Shown piece by piece: positions 44,800 through 57,307 of a DNA stretch of 64,000 bases. Location: positions 1,509,501-1,573,500 of the forward strand of contig BQJC01000001.1 in assembly GCA_021604505.1 (NCBI GenBank), in the 5' to 3' direction. Made by a program: the position numbers and the translations under genes. Numbering within the stretch: the first letter of the stretch is position 1; every line of letters begins with the position of its first letter. The notes below the pieces were generated by a model, which saw only the letters and a list, made by a program, of their open reading frames with translations, did not search any database and was not told the DNA's origin. This DNA comes from Nitrospinaceae bacterium (GTDB taxonomy: Bacteria > Nitrospinota > Nitrospinia > Nitrospinales > VA-1).

Positions 44800-47007
44800 A
44801 TGGCTTTTAAAACGCGCCATTCGGCTGGTGGTTGGGGGGCCATACTTTTTTCCCTGAAATGGGCCCGGAAGGCGGGCGGCCTGTGGCCCATGTTGCGGGC
44901 CTTGTATTCCCGGAACAGCTGTAAAAGCTGTGCTCTGGGCATGGGCGGGCAACAGGGCGGGATGAAAAACGAACGGGGAAGTTTCCCGGAGGTTTGCAAC
45001 AAATCGTTTCTCGCCCAGGCGTCGGATATGCAGGGTGCCCTGCCCATCGATTTCTTCGACCGTCACGATATAGCGACATTGTCCCAATGGTCGCCCAGGC
45101 AACTCGAATTGAGCGGACGTCTGACTCAGCCGGTTCTCTGTGAACCCAATGCCACTCATTACCGCCCCATTTCCTGGACCGATGCCGCAGAACGCATCGT
45201 TGACAAGATCCAGGCAACCTCTCCGGACCGGACATTTTTTTATTCCAGCGGGCGCTCCTCCAACGAAGCCGGGTTTCTGCTTCAGCTTTTCGCCCGGTCT
45301 TTCGGAACCAACAACGTCAACAACTGTTCTTACTATTGCCACCAGGCATCGGGAGTGGGTTTATCGCAGAGCATCGGCTCCGGGACGGCTACGGTGCAAC
45401 TGGAAGACCTGGATGCAACGGATCTGATCTTTTTGATAGGCGCCAACCCCGCATCCAATCATCCGCGCTTCATGCGCACCCTCATGGAAATCCGCCGCCG
45501 GGGCGGAAAAGTCGTCGTCATCAACCCGGCCCGGGAACCGGGTCTGGAAAATTTCAGCGTTCCATCGGATGTCAGAAGCCTGCTCTTTGGTTCGGAAATT
45601 GCCAGCACCTATGTGCAACCCAATATCGGCGGCGACATCGCGCTTTTAAAAGGAATTGGCAAGGCACTCATCGAAATTTCGGGAAAAGAACCTGAAATTC
45701 TCGTCCCGGAATTTATTGAAAACCACACCGAAGATTATCTCGCTTACAAAAAAGATCTGGAAGAAACATCCTGGGAAATTTTGGAAAAGGACTCAGGCAT
45801 CGCTCAGGAAGTCATGCAGGACATCGCCCGCCAATATTCCCGTGCGAAAAATGTCGTCTTCGCCTGGGCGATGGGCATCACCCACCATGCTCATGGCGTC
45901 GAAAACGTGCATTCCATCGTCAATCTGGCGTTGATGCGCGGCATGGTGGCCCGCAAAAACGCCGGCCTTTTGCCTTTGCGCGGTCACAGTAACGTTCAGG
46001 GAATCGGTTCCATCGGCTTTACGCCGGAGTTAAAACAGAAAATTTTTAACAATCTTGAAACCTCCTGCAAAATATCCCTTCCATCCCAAAAGGGGCTGGA
46101 CACGCTGGGCTGTATGGAAGCGAGTAAAGAAGGACAATTCGATTTTGCCTGGAACCTGGGCGGCAACCTGTTCGGCTCCAATCCCGATTCAAAATTCGCC
46201 AGAGAGGCATTGAGCAATATCGATTTTGTCCTGTACATGAACACCACTCTCAATCAGAGCCATTTCCTGGGCAGAGGCAAAACCTCACTCATCCTCCCGG
46301 TTCTGGCCCGCGATGAAGAACCGCAAGCCACCACTCAGGAAAGCATGTTCAGTTATGTCCGCATGAGCGACGGTGGCGACCCCCGCCATTTGGGCCCTCG
46401 AAGCGAAGTGAGCGTGATCGCGGAAATTGCCGCAAGGGTTCTCGATCAACATCCCATTCCCTGGAACGAACTCAGACAACATGAAAATATCCGGAAACTG
46501 ATCGGGACCGTCATCCCGGGGTTTGAAAAAATGCAGGAAATAGACGCCACCCGAAAGGAGTTTCATATTAACGGCAGGATTCTGCATTCCCCGAATTTTC
46601 CAACGGAAACCGGGAAAGCCAGGTTTCAGATATGCGCACTTCCCAACATTTCCCATACGGATAGGGGAAAAAATTCCTTTCAACTGATGACCGTTCGGTC
46701 GGAAGGGCAATTCAATACCGTTGTGTACGACCTGGAAGATCGATACCGGGGAATTCCGTCGAGGGATGTGGTTCTGATGAATCCTGAAGACATCCGGTCA
46801 CACGGATTTCAGGAGGGGCAAAAAGTTACGGTGGCAAACGACACGGGTGAGTTGACCAGTCTGAAAATCATTTCTTTTCCGATCAAATCAGGAAATATCA
46901 TGATGTACTACCCGGAAGCCAATGTCCTGGTTCCCAGGCATCACGACAAACAATCCAGAACGCCTTCATTTAAATCCGTGCCTGTGGCGGTAAACGCGGA
47001 GGGATGA
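44800..47007 (+). CDS. YdeP-type molybdopterin oxidoreductase (formate dehydrogenase alpha-like)
   Basis: A 735-residue FdhF-related protein of the YdeP/Fdhalpha-like type. N-terminal cysteines (SCKSCALGMGGQQGGM) may bind an iron-sulfur cluster. The Mo-ligand position of formate dehydrogenase H (VUHGPS) corresponds to Cys180 in YYCHQASGVGL, so this is a cysteine rather than a selenocysteine form. Molybdopterin-binding segments include DLIFLIGANPASNHPR, LLPLRGHSNVQGIGSIG and a C-terminal MopB-like domain with NTVVYDLEDRYRGI. No Tat signal is evident. CGGAGAG precedes the ATG, 23 bp after batE, so it may share the Bat transcript. True substrates of YdeP proteins are not established; the E. coli member is linked to acid resistance. 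Confidence 0.88.
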   Translation: MAFKTRHSAGGWGAILFSLKWARKAGGLWPMLRALYSRNSCKSCALGMGGQQGGMKNERGSFPEVCNKSFLAQASDMQGALPIDFFDRHDIATLSQWSPRQLELSGRLTQPVLCEPNATHYRPISWTDAAERIVDKIQATSPDRTFFYSSGRSSNEAGFLLQLFARSFGTNNVNNCSYYCHQASGVGLSQSIGSGTATVQLEDLDATDLIFLIGANPASNHPRFMRTLMEIRRRGGKVVVINPAREPGLENFSVPSDVRSLLFGSEIASTYVQPNIGGDIALLKGIGKALIEISGKEPEILVPEFIENHTEDYLAYKKDLEETSWEILEKDSGIAQEVMQDIARQYSRAKNVVFAWAMGITHHAHGVENVHSIVNLALMRGMVARKNAGLLPLRGHSNVQGIGSIGFTPELKQKIFNNLETSCKISLPSQKGLDTLGCMEASKEGQFDFAWNLGGNLFGSNPDSKFAREALSNIDFVLYMNTTLNQSHFLGRGKTSLILPVLARDEEPQATTQESMFSYVRMSDGGDPRHLGPRSEVSVIAEIAARVLDQHPIPWNELRQHENIRKLIGTVIPGFEKMQEIDATRKEFHINGRILHSPNFPTETGKARFQICALPNISHTDRGKNSFQLMTVRSEGQFNTVVYDLEDRYRGIPSRDVVLMNPEDIRSHGFQEGQKVTVANDTGELTSLKIISFPIKSGNIMMYYPEANVLVPRHHDKQSRTPSFKSVPVAVNAEG

Positions 47008-52071: not shown

Positions 52072-53394
52072 ATGCACAACCCTGTCAATTTGCAAAAATT
52101 TAAAGAGCAAATTAAAAAGCAGTCCCTTGAGTTGAAAAAAATCAAGACGGAGAAGGAAAAGTCCCTGGAGGATCTCAGGAGTTTAATTGCGAACAACCGG
52201 GTTGAGATCAACGCCCTCAAAGAAACCATAAAGAGAAATGAAGAGCAACTGATTCGGCGGCGCTCCCTGGTTTTCGAACCGCGAAAGACCGTTTCTCACT
52301 CCTCTTCACCAGATAGCCTCAATGACCTCCCGCAAAAAATCCGGCAGGAAAATGAAGACATTTTAAAGAACAAATTGTTGATCAAAAAATACGAGAGCTT
52401 TCTCTATGGAGATACCGCCGCGGATAAAAAGGGAGTCCCTCCGGCAACCATCATTCAAGGGCTGAAGGCGGACCTGGAAAAGCACTACGAAAAAAACAAA
52501 AAACTGGCGATGGAGATGGAGTTTCTTCTGGAAGAAAACCGCGAGCTGGAATCCAAAATGATGATGCTCAAGGAGCAGGGCATCGTAGAGGCCGCCGAAA
52601 ACAGACCCAACACAGAAAGCCGTATCGCGGTCACCACGGAATTTTCCGGAGGACTGGAAAGTTTTCTCGTGACCTATTCCGATCTGATCACGCTCATCCT
52701 GGTCATTTTCGTCCTGCTGTATTCCGTTTCGAACATCGATCACGAAAAATTTTCGGAAGCATTTTCTTCTTTTCAGGAAAACGAACAACGCTATGAAAGC
52801 CAAAATGTCTGGCTGAACAAAAAAGAACTGGAAATGCTCAAACGGGTGCGGGAATTGGTCAAGGACAACGTCGACCCGGAAAGCCTGGTCCGCAGTGATG
52901 TGAGAACCGTTCTGATCCGCTTGAAATCATCCGACCTGTTCCTTCCGGGCAGTGCGGAATTGATTCCAGGAGCAGAGGAGTTGATCCTCGATTCGATAAA
53001 AGAGGAAATGCAGGACGGGGTCAAGCAGGTCGATGTCAACGGGCACACCGACGACGTTCCAATAAAACCTAACAGTGAATTCCCATCCAACTGGGAACTT
53101 TCCGCCGTGCGGGCCGCTCATGTGGCGAGGGTCATCATCGACAAATTTAAATTCTCCGGGGATCGCATGGTGGTTACCGGATACGGGCAACACCGGCCAT
53201 TCAAACCCAATAACAGCGATTTGAATCGCGGCCTGAATCGGCGGGTGGATATTAAAATACTTAAAGATGTCCAGCTTGAGGATGAAAAAAAGGGATTCGA
53301 CCCTGCCAAAAGTCCGGATGCGAAGTCGCAATTGGGGAGAAATATCATTCTTCCGACGCGCCCTCCTTCAGCGGCTTCTGCCCAAAACCCTTAA
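52072..53394 (+). CDS. MotB/OmpA-like stator protein with long cytoplasmic coiled coil
   Basis: A 440-residue protein. Residues 1-190 are a charged, heptad-rich coiled coil (KKIKTEKEKSLEDLRSLI and following). A single membrane helix at about 198-220 reads FLVTYSDLITLILVIFVLLY; Asp204 is in the position of the proton-carrying aspartate of MotB. The C-terminal OmpA/MotB peptidoglycan-binding domain (about 290-410) has DVNGHTDDVPI, WELSAVRAAHVARVI, GYGQHRPF and NRGLNRRVDIKI. Flagellar MotB has only a short cytoplasmic tail before the helix, so the extension is unusual. The matching MotA-like gene is two genes downstream, with an adenylate cyclase gene between. No flagellar genes are present. Confidence 0.9.
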   Translation: MHNPVNLQKFKEQIKKQSLELKKIKTEKEKSLEDLRSLIANNRVEINALKETIKRNEEQLIRRRSLVFEPRKTVSHSSSPDSLNDLPQKIRQENEDILKNKLLIKKYESFLYGDTAADKKGVPPATIIQGLKADLEKHYEKNKKLAMEMEFLLEENRELESKMMMLKEQGIVEAAENRPNTESRIAVTTEFSGGLESFLVTYSDLITLILVIFVLLYSVSNIDHEKFSEAFSSFQENEQRYESQNVWLNKKELEMLKRVRELVKDNVDPESLVRSDVRTVLIRLKSSDLFLPGSAELIPGAEELILDSIKEEMQDGVKQVDVNGHTDDVPIKPNSEFPSNWELSAVRAAHVARVIIDKFKFSGDRMVVTGYGQHRPFKPNNSDLNRGLNRRVDIKILKDVQLEDEKKGFDPAKSPDAKSQLGRNIILPTRPPSAASAQNP

Positions 53395-53499
53395 TATTCC
53401 GCGAGAAATTTGACGTCTGAATAATATTTTTTCATTTCCATCAAAATCGCCTTATAATATTGATATATATATACTTATGAACTTCTTCAGGGGGGAATT

Positions 53500-53574
53500 A
53501 TGCCCTGCGGACCCGGATTTTTCAAGCGCACGCCATGCATGATTTTTTGCACGACAACTCGTCGAAATTGTTAA
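53500..53574 (+). CDS. Possible 24-residue leader peptide overlapping the cyclase start
   Basis: ATG 53500 has the best Shine-Dalgarno in the cluster (AGGGGGG at 53489-53495, 4 nt away). The peptide (MPCGPGFFKRTPC onward, four Cys) runs out of frame across the cyclase ATG at 53535 and ends 40 bp inside it. The cyclase start itself has no visible ribosome-binding site, so this ORF could govern cyclase translation. Confidence 0.35.
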   Translation: MPCGPGFFKRTPCMIFCTTTRRNC

Positions 53575-55613
53575 AAAACCGTGGGGTTTTTCTGCAATTC
53601 AACCAATACAAAATTCAGCGGGCGTTGGCGTCATTTTCCGAAACCGCCCGCATGGTATTTATGGTCATTCCCAGACTCCTGCATGTGAACCAGGAGGGTT
53701 TGCCGGGTTACCTGGGAGACGAAGTGCCTTGCGGAATTCATAATTATACGATCGACCCACAGACTCAGGTTTATACGGAGAAACTTTTTCCCAAGACCAT
53801 CAGCCGGCGTCCCAAAAACTTGAATCCGGTCATTCATTCTCTGTTACTGGTGGGAAGCGTGGGTTCCATTGCGCAGAATCAAAAGTCGGATCTGGACTAC
53901 ACTCTTTTGGTCGATAAATCCAGTCTCTCTGAAAACGACATTAAGGTTCTGAAAAAAAAGCTGAAGTTGATCGAACGGTGGGTGATGTTCGAGTTTGAAC
54001 TGGAAACCCACTTCTTCATCAACGATATTCAGGAAGTCAAAGACAATATCTTCGGAGAAAGTGACAGTGAGAGCACAGGTTCCGCCCTCGCGAAACTGCT
54101 CAAGGAGGAGATGTACCGGACCATGATTCTCGCCGCGGGAAAAATTCCGTTTTGGTGGATCGTGCCGGTGGAAACCGATGATGAAAACTATGAACGCCTG
54201 TTTCATGAAGTCCATGCAGGAAAGACCCTCCTCAATGGAGACGAGTTTATTGACATCGGCAATATCGCTGATATCTCCGATGGAGAATTTTTTGGCGGCT
54301 CTATCTGGACCCTGATCAAATCGTTCAAATCACCGTTCAAAACATTACTGAAGATGGGTCTGCTGGAGGATTATATGTTCAACAAGACCTCCTTCAATCT
54401 CCTTTGCCACCAGATCAAGGAAAAAGTGTTTTCCGGTGACTCCCCTCACCTGGCCGACCCTTACATCATGTTGTACGAACGTGTCGAAAGGTTTTTTCAA
54501 GGCTCAAAATCCGAAAAGGAAACCGATGCCCTGCGCATCGCTTTTTATATGAAAATAGGAGCCAAGGTCGACTCCAGCGAACCGGATGCAACCTTGGACG
54601 ATTCAAAAAAATCCATCCTGGCAGACAAGCTGACCGAATGGGAATGGCCCGACACCAAATTGAAGCATCTAAACGCCTACAATACCTGGCAAATGAACCA
54701 AAAGGTTGCCATGGGGAATCGCATCAATAAAATTCTCATGAATTCCTACGAGGCTATTTCGGAAAAGAACAAAACTCTGGACCCGGCGGAAACTTTGATA
54801 ACCAAAAAGGACACGCATCTATTGGGCCGCAAGCTATTCAGTTTCTACCGCAAGGCCCCAAACAAGGTCGAAAACCTGTATTCCCTTGTAGATGGGAACA
54901 CCGCGGAAGCCACCCTGACCTTCCTTCTGGATAAGAACAACTCCAGTAAAAACCCGGTCTGGTATCTGATCCGTGGAAAGTTCTCGACCGATATCTCCAG
55001 GGTGGGCCAGGAAAATATCATTAAGAAGGCGTCTTCTCTACAGTTTCTGATCGCCTTCACCGCTTTCAACCAATTGTTCCAAAATTCGACAGAGCTTTTC
55101 ATCCGCCCGGAAACGCTGTCGATAACAAAAACCAATCTGGAAACCACTCTGACTCAACTGGACACCTTTTTGGGTCCGGTGAGCATCAACGCCATTCACA
55201 ACAAAGATTTGATGTCGCCGGTACGCATCACCAGACTGTACATGATCCTCGACTTTGGAATTCCCGTTCCCAAAGAAATTCTTACAGGAAATATTAAACA
55301 GTGCAAAACCAATGCAGACTTGAAGCTATTCATCAACAAACGAATGGATAAGATTCAAAGTTTATCGACGATCTACCGCACCTCCTGGGGTGAGGTATTT
55401 TGCAAAACTTATTCAGGGCTTCACTCCTTACATCGCTGTATGGAAGAAATAAGCGGCCAGATCGTACCGGAAACCTTTGAAGACCGGGATTTCTTAAAAG
55501 TATTTATTCCCAGCCAGGAAAGCAAACCTCTGGAGATTCCCTGGTTGAACAAATACCTGATCCGGTCCATGAAAAATAAGAAACCCGCTGTCGCTCATCA
55601 AGAGGCTTGCTGA
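53535..55613 (+). CDS. cyaA: Class I adenylate cyclase-like protein
   Basis: A 692-residue protein matching the class I (enterobacterial CyaA) type, which makes cAMP from ATP in the cytoplasm. The nucleotidyltransferase motif is LLVGSVGSIAQNQKSDLDYT (Gly107-Ser108, then Asp119 and Asp121). Downstream class I hallmarks are WVMFEFELETHFFIND, LLKEEMYRTMILAAGKIPFW with WIVP, and DPYIMLYERVERFF. The C-terminal regulatory part is shorter than in E. coli CyaA (848 residues). It starts with ATG but without a visible ribosome-binding site. It lies between the MotB-like and MotA-like genes, an unexpected place for a cyclase. Both GAF-PilB proteins and Crp-type regulators could be readers of the product, but that is inference. 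Confidence 0.88.
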   Translation: MHDFLHDNSSKLLKNRGVFLQFNQYKIQRALASFSETARMVFMVIPRLLHVNQEGLPGYLGDEVPCGIHNYTIDPQTQVYTEKLFPKTISRRPKNLNPVIHSLLLVGSVGSIAQNQKSDLDYTLLVDKSSLSENDIKVLKKKLKLIERWVMFEFELETHFFINDIQEVKDNIFGESDSESTGSALAKLLKEEMYRTMILAAGKIPFWWIVPVETDDENYERLFHEVHAGKTLLNGDEFIDIGNIADISDGEFFGGSIWTLIKSFKSPFKTLLKMGLLEDYMFNKTSFNLLCHQIKEKVFSGDSPHLADPYIMLYERVERFFQGSKSEKETDALRIAFYMKIGAKVDSSEPDATLDDSKKSILADKLTEWEWPDTKLKHLNAYNTWQMNQKVAMGNRINKILMNSYEAISEKNKTLDPAETLITKKDTHLLGRKLFSFYRKAPNKVENLYSLVDGNTAEATLTFLLDKNNSSKNPVWYLIRGKFSTDISRVGQENIIKKASSLQFLIAFTAFNQLFQNSTELFIRPETLSITKTNLETTLTQLDTFLGPVSINAIHNKDLMSPVRITRLYMILDFGIPVPKEILTGNIKQCKTNADLKLFINKRMDKIQSLSTIYRTSWGEVFCKTYSGLHSLHRCMEEISGQIVPETFEDRDFLKVFIPSQESKPLEIPWLNKYLIRSMKNKKPAVAHQEAC

Positions 55614-55621
55614 CCAATATT

Positions 55622-56452
55622 ATGGCAAATCCAATCGCAAACGAAGCTGAGTTTTTAGACCCCATTCCGGGCCGGCCGCCGCAGGAAAGCGCCCAAATGG
55701 ACAAGGGAACCGTTCTGGGTGTTCTCTCAGGAGTCTTTTTAATCGTTCTCGCCATTCTGAACGGCGGCTCACCTGGGGTTTTTATCAATCTGAACAGCGC
55801 TCTCATCGTGTTGGGAGGAACGGCGGCCACCACCTTCATTGCTTTTTCATCCAAGAAAATTTTCATGATGGTTCCCGTGGTGATCAACGCTTTCAAGCCG
55901 GAGGTTTTTCAACCTTCGGATTACGTCGAAGAAATCATAGACCTTGCCTCCACTTACCGTTCCGGAGGGACGAAACGGCTGGAGTCGGAAGAACAGTTTT
56001 TGAAGAACCGCTTGATCAAAAGCGGTGTGTCGATGGTTGTGGATGGCTATAACTCCCGTGAGATTCAGGAAATCATGGACCGCGAACTTTCCTCCATGGT
56101 GGAAAGACACAACGCAGGGCAGAAAATCCTGCGGTTCATGGGAGTCCAGGCGCCGGTATTCGGAATGTGCGGAACCTTGATCGGCCTGATCCAGATGCTC
56201 ATCAATGTGAACAATCCGGCAACCATCGGGCCGTCCCTGGCGACCGCTTTGATCACCACGTTTTACGGGCTCATTCTGGCCAATCTGGTGATCACTCCGA
56301 TCGTGTCCAAACTGCACACGCGGACGGAAAGTGAAACCATGCTCTACCGGGCCATCAAAGTGGGCGTATTAGGAATCTATGAGCGCACCAATCCTAAAAA
56401 AATTCGCAAAAATATGAACGCATTATTACCTCCTGACCAGCAAAGGGATTAA
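55622..56452 (+). CDS. MotA/TolQ/ExbB-type proton-channel protein
   Basis: A 276-residue protein of the MotA type. I chose ATG 55622 over the TTG at 55607, which would overlap the cyclase gene. Four membrane helices are visible: GTVLGVLSGVFLIVLAILN, FINLNSALIVLGGTAATTFI, a third in MGVQAPVFGMCGTLIGLIQM and a fourth in ATALITTFYGLILANLVITP. Prolines in the last two helices sit where MotA Pro173 and Pro222 lie. The cytoplasmic loop between helices 2 and 3 is rich in Glu/Arg. It would form the channel with the MotB-like protein. The 3-bp gap to the pentapeptide gene indicates one operon. Confidence 0.92.
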   Translation: MANPIANEAEFLDPIPGRPPQESAQMDKGTVLGVLSGVFLIVLAILNGGSPGVFINLNSALIVLGGTAATTFIAFSSKKIFMMVPVVINAFKPEVFQPSDYVEEIIDLASTYRSGGTKRLESEEQFLKNRLIKSGVSMVVDGYNSREIQEIMDRELSSMVERHNAGQKILRFMGVQAPVFGMCGTLIGLIQMLINVNNPATIGPSLATALITTFYGLILANLVITPIVSKLHTRTESETMLYRAIKVGVLGIYERTNPKKIRKNMNALLPPDQQRD

Positions 56453-56455
56453 CCC

Positions 56456-57307
56456 ATGTCCAACGTCAACGAATTTCTTTCGGCAATCGGTTCGAGTAAG
56501 GACCAACAGGGAGCCAACTTCAGTTCCTATCAACTCAAGGGAGTCGGCCTGAACGGACTGAATTTCGAAAATTCAATTTTCGACGGTACCGACTTCGAAG
56601 GAGCCGAAATCATCGAGGTCAAATTTTCCAACTCACGGCTCAACAACGTCTCGTTTCAAAAAGCAAAAATAAAGAACACGGACTTTTCCGGAGCCCAGCT
56701 TCAGGGCGTGAATTTCCAGAAGGCCCTGCTGATCAACTGCAATTTCAATAACGCTTCCCTTGAAAACGGTGCATTGGACTCGGCAACCCTGGAAGGCTGT
56801 GATTTGAGGGGAAGTAACCTCAGCCATGTCAACCTGTCTTCAGCGAAATTGAACAAATGCGACCTGTCTTTCGCAAGGTTGATGTACGGATACCTGTGGA
56901 AAGTTGAAATCCACGACTCGCAATTGAATGGCATCAACCTCAGGGGATCGGATTTGAGTTTTTGTAAAATTGAGGGAACGGATTTTCGCGGCTCCGTATT
57001 AAAATACACCGACCTCAACTCCTGCACCTTCGACAAAGTCAACTTGAGCAACGCCAACCTGATGGGGGCGGAAATGAAGGACGCTCATTGTCAGAAAATT
57101 ACCATCAAAGAAGCCAATCTGGAAGGGGTCGATCTGACGTACGCCAACCTGGAAGGTTCCGATTTGGAGAACGCATTTCTTCTGGAAGCCAATCTGCACG
57201 GCGCCAACTTGTCAAACGCCAACCTCAAGGACGCCTACGTTGTCGATGCCAACATCGCCAAGGCCAACACCCAGGGAGCCAACCTGGAAAACACCATTTT
57301 GCAATGA
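56456..57307 (+). CDS. Pentapeptide-repeat protein
   Basis: A 283-residue protein composed of about forty A(D/N)LxX-type pentapeptides forming a right-handed quadrilateral beta helix. Clear runs are GANLSNANLKDAYVVDANIA and NLEGVDLTYANLEGSDLENA. The first 20 residues form a short non-repeat cap. There is no signal peptide. AGGG lies upstream of the ATG. It follows the MotA-like gene by 3 bp. Some family members mimic DNA and protect gyrase, others are scaffolds; here a role with the membrane channel or cyclase is only inferred from position. Confidence 0.9.
   Translation: MSNVNEFLSAIGSSKDQQGANFSSYQLKGVGLNGLNFENSIFDGTDFEGAEIIEVKFSNSRLNNVSFQKAKIKNTDFSGAQLQGVNFQKALLINCNFNNASLENGALDSATLEGCDLRGSNLSHVNLSSAKLNKCDLSFARLMYGYLWKVEIHDSQLNGINLRGSDLSFCKIEGTDFRGSVLKYTDLNSCTFDKVNLSNANLMGAEMKDAHCQKITIKEANLEGVDLTYANLEGSDLENAFLLEANLHGANLSNANLKDAYVVDANIAKANTQGANLENTILQ

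Follow-up and report, generated by a model that had tools for sequence, protein, structure and literature searches.

A class I-type cyclase gene between flagellar-type stator genes of Nitrospinales: a candidate for flagellum-linked signalling

How flagellar load or surface contact is converted into a second messenger has been asked for a long time, with most of the work done in Pseudomonas and Caulobacter. A gene cluster from Nitrospinales, a marine order that includes nitrite oxidisers, raises this question in compact form: a gene of the class I adenylate cyclase family lies between genes for MotB- and MotA-like stator subunits. The initial annotation suggested that ion flux or cell-wall attachment sets cAMP output here, or the reverse. 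The gene set, of which stator and cyclase are lost with the flagellum, lends itself to a direct test of stator-to-messenger coupling. Here we explore the cluster in its own genome and in relatives, asking what kind of stator and what kind of cyclase it encodes and how one could act on the other.

Gene arrangement and conservation of the cluster

The window, i.e. the whole stretch of 64,000 nucleotides analysed, is part of a Nitrospinota genome of 3.64 Mb in 14 contigs. At 52072-57307 it holds, in the order initially read, four intact, co-directional open reading frames on the forward strand: a MotB-like stator B subunit (52072-53394, 440 aa; MotB_plug 5.7e-14, OmpA 1.1e-13), a class I adenylate cyclase family protein (53535-55613, 692 aa; PF12633 1.2e-50, PF01295 3.4e-74), a MotA-like stator A subunit (55622-56452, 276 aa; PF01618 7.5e-28) and a pentapeptide-repeat protein (56456-57307, 283 aa; PF00805 1.2e-53). 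MotA is numbered from its most likely start, the ATG at 55622; the ORF lister begins at the TTG at 55607. Spacing 3' of the cyclase is indeed tight, with gaps of 8 bp before MotA and 3 bp before the pentapeptide gene. The MotB gene, separated from the cyclase by 140 bp (53395-53534; 24-220 bp in relatives), is set further off than the others and may have its own promoter. The gap contains a forward-strand promoter-like match, TTTTCA-18-TATAAT, that does not stand above chance, promoter matches being no commoner than chance overall (8 seen versus 6.3 expected). The cluster is flanked by an opposite-strand MFS transporter gene and by a DUF2784 gene. Outside the cluster, a large ORF at window 44800-47007 encodes a molybdopterin oxidoreductase, and response-regulator genes come after it.

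A scan of genome contigs with the single protein gave no relatives, and a scan with a cyclase alignment gave 171, which belong to Nitrospinota and mostly to Nitrospinaceae. PF12633 was identified in 45 of the 60 genomes of the relative set. Adjacency of the cyclase to MotA and MotB, the check initially proposed, is kept order-wide, in 38 of the 50 Nitrospinales cyclases placed on the tree. Mapped on this tree, presence or absence of Mot neighbours takes six gain or loss changes, compared with 13.9 in shuffles, and strong branches force five of the six. The syntenic order in Nitrospinales is MFS, MotB, cyclase, MotA, pentapeptide protein, DUF2784, FGE-sulfatase-like protein and regulator-propeller protein; since this arrangement recurs in four families of the order, it is not a matter of chance. 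Adjacency is retained in two permuted loci, L074 and L166, where MotA precedes the cyclase; MotB comes first in L166 and is cut off by the contig end in L074. The simplest reading is that the cluster is ancestral to Nitrospinales, having arisen once at the root of the order and been lost several times thereafter.

MotA and MotB were lost jointly, several times. The cyclase and the pentapeptide gene remain after such loss in g14, g16, G009 and G024, the cyclase alone in g2; the pentapeptide gene is retained with the cyclase in most lineages without MotA/MotB, and its product aligns nearly gap-free across the order. No Mot gene adjoins the cyclases found outside the order, i.e. in family f5 of the class, Tectomicrobia, Myxococcales, Alteromonas and others. 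A cyclase beside unrelated genes, which the initial annotation had regarded as evidence against a link, is thus found outside the order and in lineages that lost the Mot genes. Since it occurs without Mot genes in both settings, the cyclase is not strictly dependent on this stator. The reverse does not apply: of the 45 genomes that bear a cyclase, 31 also have the cyclase-linked stator clade, and of the 15 others none has it. In two relatives from the genus of the window, the cluster MotB is broken up into two ORFs (L039 8796-10390; L042 5577-7049), by assembly error or real change. G009 (L061, L229; 92% completeness) has FliG, FlhA, cyclase and pentapeptide gene with no MotA match.

The stator and its relation to the flagellum

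The closest solved relative of MotA is PomA (E=2e-48), with a near gap-free alignment through the rotor-facing loop. MotA residues R113 and E121 correspond to E. coli R90 and E98, which contact FliG (PMC12505986), and P178 and P226 to P173 and P222. Equivalents of R90, E98, P173, P222 and T209 are kept in all 37 sequences of the cyclase-linked clade, and the ion-binding Asp204 of MotB (E. coli D32) is present in all 32 sequences aligned. The window MotB has both a plug domain (PF13677) and an OmpA-like peptidoglycan-binding domain (PF00691) over cut-off. Because the ion-binding Asp, the MotA prolines and the FliG-contact charges are conserved, the pair is, by sequence, a flagellar-type stator and not a Tol/Exb/Zorya-like motor. 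Zorya or another defence system was considered and rejected: MotA matches no PADLOC model and MotB matches ZorB through the general MotB/OmpA domains only.

The first description reported no flagellar gene and implied a non-flagellar unit. The former holds for the annotated flanking genes but not for the genome, which is flagellated and encodes FliG, FlhA and fliW-csrA away from the cluster; together with the stator features above, this speaks against the latter. The genome has three MotA/MotB pairs, and the MotA tree contains three old clades. Members of the cyclase-linked clade share 58-73% identity with the window MotA throughout the order, the other pairs about 35%. Both other pairs lie beside c-di-GMP-type genes: one clade, in which MotB is short, comes after a REC-HD_5 protein (L121), the other has a long MotB with a PilZ gene 3' (L122, L125, L128, L129) and Ser or Gly at the E98 position. 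In family f2 a cNMP-PAS-GGDEF-EAL gene lies upstream of the PilZ-linked pair. Examples of these signalling-linked pairs are L121 7437-10427, L122 7981-10650, L125 4249-9822 and L128 4152-9742; a GYP motif was seen in just one of six HD_5 proteins. Two further loci are unusual. At L118 1922-3745 (G019:C188) a 607-aa protein fuses a response-regulator receiver domain to the MotB N-terminal coil and adjoins, in opposite orientation, a relative of the cyclase-linked MotA. At L256 5423-9085 (G059:C60), in a single genome, a class III cyclase gene whose start is FHA-like lies divergent to a different MotA/MotB pair, which may be a second pairing of cyclase and stator.

We compared genomes of at least 90% completeness: 24 of the 26 that encode FlhA also have the cyclase, as against none of the five that lack FlhA (p=1.2e-4, phylogeny not corrected for). 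One genome counted as cyclase-negative among the FlhA-positive ones is G008, whose contig ends beside the cluster's MotB, so the absence is probably an assembly artefact. In G010, G011, G017 and G031, which span three genera and have no FlhA or a disrupted one (in two pieces in G011), the whole four-gene cassette is missing between intact flanking genes, which lie 0.4-2.6 kb apart instead of 5.6-6 kb; no cassette remnant was detected at these sites. Because the cluster is absent from relatives that lost flagella, the cyclase probably signals about, or to, the flagellum. The functional link between cyclase and channel that was first proposed thus gains support from the order-wide neighbourhood, from a stator clade never found without the cyclase in 60 genomes and from the absence of the cassette in non-flagellated relatives.

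Cyclase active site, MotB coil and possible readers

The initial annotation described class I cyclases as enzymes known from enterobacteria; the family is in fact widespread in this phylum. The window cyclase scores 172.7 (Adenyl_cycl_N) and 250.9 bits (Adenylate_cycl) against a cut-off of 27 and misses the NCBIfam equivalog cut-off (best 462 versus 802 bits). Its Pol-beta-type motif reads G107S108...S118D119LD121YT123. Equivalents of E. coli CyaA Ser103, Ser113, Asp114 and Asp116 are invariant in 50 of 50 Nitrospinales sequences, and 42 positions are invariant with E. coli and all sampled homologues. The structure model (mean pLDDT 82.8) gave weak matches to solved nucleotidyltransferases, AAD(9)/AadA at E=3e-3, which are in line with a Pol-beta-like fold and no more. 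That the metal and phosphate residues are conserved speaks for an active enzyme. The position of E. coli Trp118, reportedly found by Linder in 2008 to be essential in that enzyme, is Thr in all 50 Nitrospinales sequences (window Thr123) and Trp in E. coli and all 35 homologues collected outside the order. Since an otherwise invariant active-site Trp is replaced, it is not certain that the product is cAMP, and the order-wide change makes the enzyme well suited to the question of which products class I cyclases can form.

A candidate for contact between stator and cyclase is found in MotB. The window MotB has a cytoplasmic N-terminal coiled coil of about 195 aa, predicted to be helical, before the transmembrane helix with Asp204; in most relatives the stretch before this helix is longer, at about 270-300 residues. 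Within it cyclase-linked MotBs share the motif KYExMLYG...GMLPxEII..LK, conserved about as well as the OmpA domain, which in the window reads KYESFLYG...GVPPATII..LK (residues 106-132, forward strand 52387-52467). The LYG-motif pattern was not found in the MotBs of other clades checked. We infer from this conservation that the coil, with its operon-specific KYExxLYG...PxxII motif, is the best docking-site candidate. In the MotB structure model, whose overall confidence is low (pTM 0.35), the motif is not resolved.

The four-gene cluster itself encodes no cyclic-nucleotide-binding domain. Elsewhere in the genome are genes for several cNMP-domain proteins whose phosphate-binding cassette is canonical, and for two class III cyclases, each next to a cNMP effector of its own: a CRP gene lies tail-to-tail with one of them and divergent to csrA-fliW, which are flagellar regulators (C1, L230 2544-6864), and a cNMP-GGDEF-EAL gene is divergent to another. 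CRP was rejected as a universal signal reader, the family being missing from most cyclase-bearing relatives, and the class I cyclase as sole cyclic-nucleotide source, class III cyclases being common. A stand-alone cyclic-nucleotide-binding protein is encoded among pilC-/pilT-like genes identified by eye (C2, L231 4257-4667) and possibly links the signal to type IV pili.

Candidate mechanisms and comparison with known systems

The explanation that we prefer, with belief and doubt about evenly balanced, is that the cluster encodes a dedicated flagellar-type stator and a class I-type nucleotidyl cyclase for flagellum-linked signalling, with the state of the stator relayed to the cyclase. A MotA5MotB2 unit would become part of the flagellar motor, and the cytoplasmic coiled coil of MotB would convey the docking, load or ion flow of this unit to the cyclase. 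A cyclic nucleotide, probably cAMP, would change in level as a result and be read by proteins encoded elsewhere (stand-alone cNMP proteins, cNMP-GGDEF-EAL and, in some species, CRP), which would adjust motility, pili and c-di-GMP. The pentapeptide protein would probably act with the cyclase as scaffold or regulator. What has the best support in this scheme is that the cyclase serves flagellum-linked signalling and, across most of the order, has a stator pair of its own. Two features make us favour the direction from stator to cyclase: the cyclase gene is enclosed by those of the two subunits, and the cytoplasmic arm of MotB is long. We infer the physical contact, the direction and the product, and ion flux may be coupled directly to cyclase output. 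Against this explanation stand the variable length of the MotB coil, the MotB ORF split in two assemblies of the genus, the class III cyclases as alternative sources and the Trp to Thr change. A stricter form, in which a mechano-chemical cyclase at the tip of the coil would be gated directly by motor engagement or ion flow and might make a product other than cAMP, appears unlikely to us.

Signal flow could also be reversed, the cyclase product controlling stator engagement in the manner of PilZ/c-di-GMP brakes; the receptor would be the pentapeptide protein or one that binds cNMP. Addition of cAMP to P. aeruginosa alters rotation only in the presence of MotAB (PMC6855561), and the PilZ gene 3' of another stator pair here represents a known type of second-messenger stator control; yet the cluster encodes no cyclic-nucleotide-binding domain and the cyclase is retained where the stator was lost, and we consider this direction rather improbable. 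That loss has a wider bearing: since MotA/MotB disappeared from g14, g16, g2, G009, G015 and G024, which keep both cyclase and flagellum, the cyclase works without this stator. Such a working-looking enzyme left after repeated loss, the tight spacing of cyclase, MotA and pentapeptide genes and the general tracking of flagella by the cyclase would all fit mere co-expression, i.e. stator and cyclase transcribed together in one motility regulon with no mutual action. We doubt this, as it leaves unexplained the position of the cyclase between two subunit genes, the cluster-specific conserved motif in cytoplasmic MotB and the adjacency that persists after gene-order change.

The chemistry itself may have been altered or lost, making the protein another nucleotidyl transferase, a maker of another cyclic nucleotide or a nucleotide-binding stator regulator. 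The order-wide loss of the reportedly essential Trp gives this weight as a minority view, and we take it seriously while thinking it on the whole improbable, given the four invariant Ser and Asp equivalents and the cyclic-nucleotide-binding cassettes in the genome. Very improbable, finally, is an envelope motor of a non-flagellar, Tol/Exb/Zorya/gliding-like kind that would sense the cell wall and set the output of cyclic nucleotide: its placement away from flagellar genes and the two other stator pairs available to the flagellum would suit such a motor, but rotor-contact charges in 37/37 MotA, PomA as best solved match, absence from non-flagellated genomes and the lack of a ZorA-like match do not.

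In the open-access literature we found no described class I cyclase encoded within a stator cluster and no paper on Nitrospina/Nitrospinae with adenylate cyclase; the components are each of known kind. With the MotAB/PomAB flagellar stators (FIT class, TGI4-like) the pair shares the full-length MotA-PomA match, the MotB ion-binding Asp, plug and OmpA domain, the rotor-contact Arg and Glu and the conserved prolines; it differs in its long cytoplasmic MotB coil, in genes split by a cyclase and in being the third stator of a flagellated genome. The cyclase shares both Pfam domains and the Pol-beta-type GS...SDxD motif with the E. coli CyaA family, whereas it has 692 aa instead of 848, Thr for Trp118 order-wide and linkage to stator and pentapeptide genes. 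In P. aeruginosa flagellar load and MotAB are linked to cAMP, with FlhF and FimV (PMC6855561). This likeness, flagellar load and a stator pair tied to cAMP, lends support to both signal directions; the cyclases there are separate and not described as stator-linked, whereas here the cyclase gene lies between the stator genes. PilZ-type c-di-GMP control of stators (YcgR, FlgZ, MotL) likewise brings a second messenger to the stator, and Bd1971, a cAMP-activated EAL enzyme (PMC6717892), has its counterpart in the cNMP-GGDEF-EAL proteins found here. In contrast to both, the messenger-making enzyme here is encoded inside the stator cluster and is of the cyclic-mononucleotide type.
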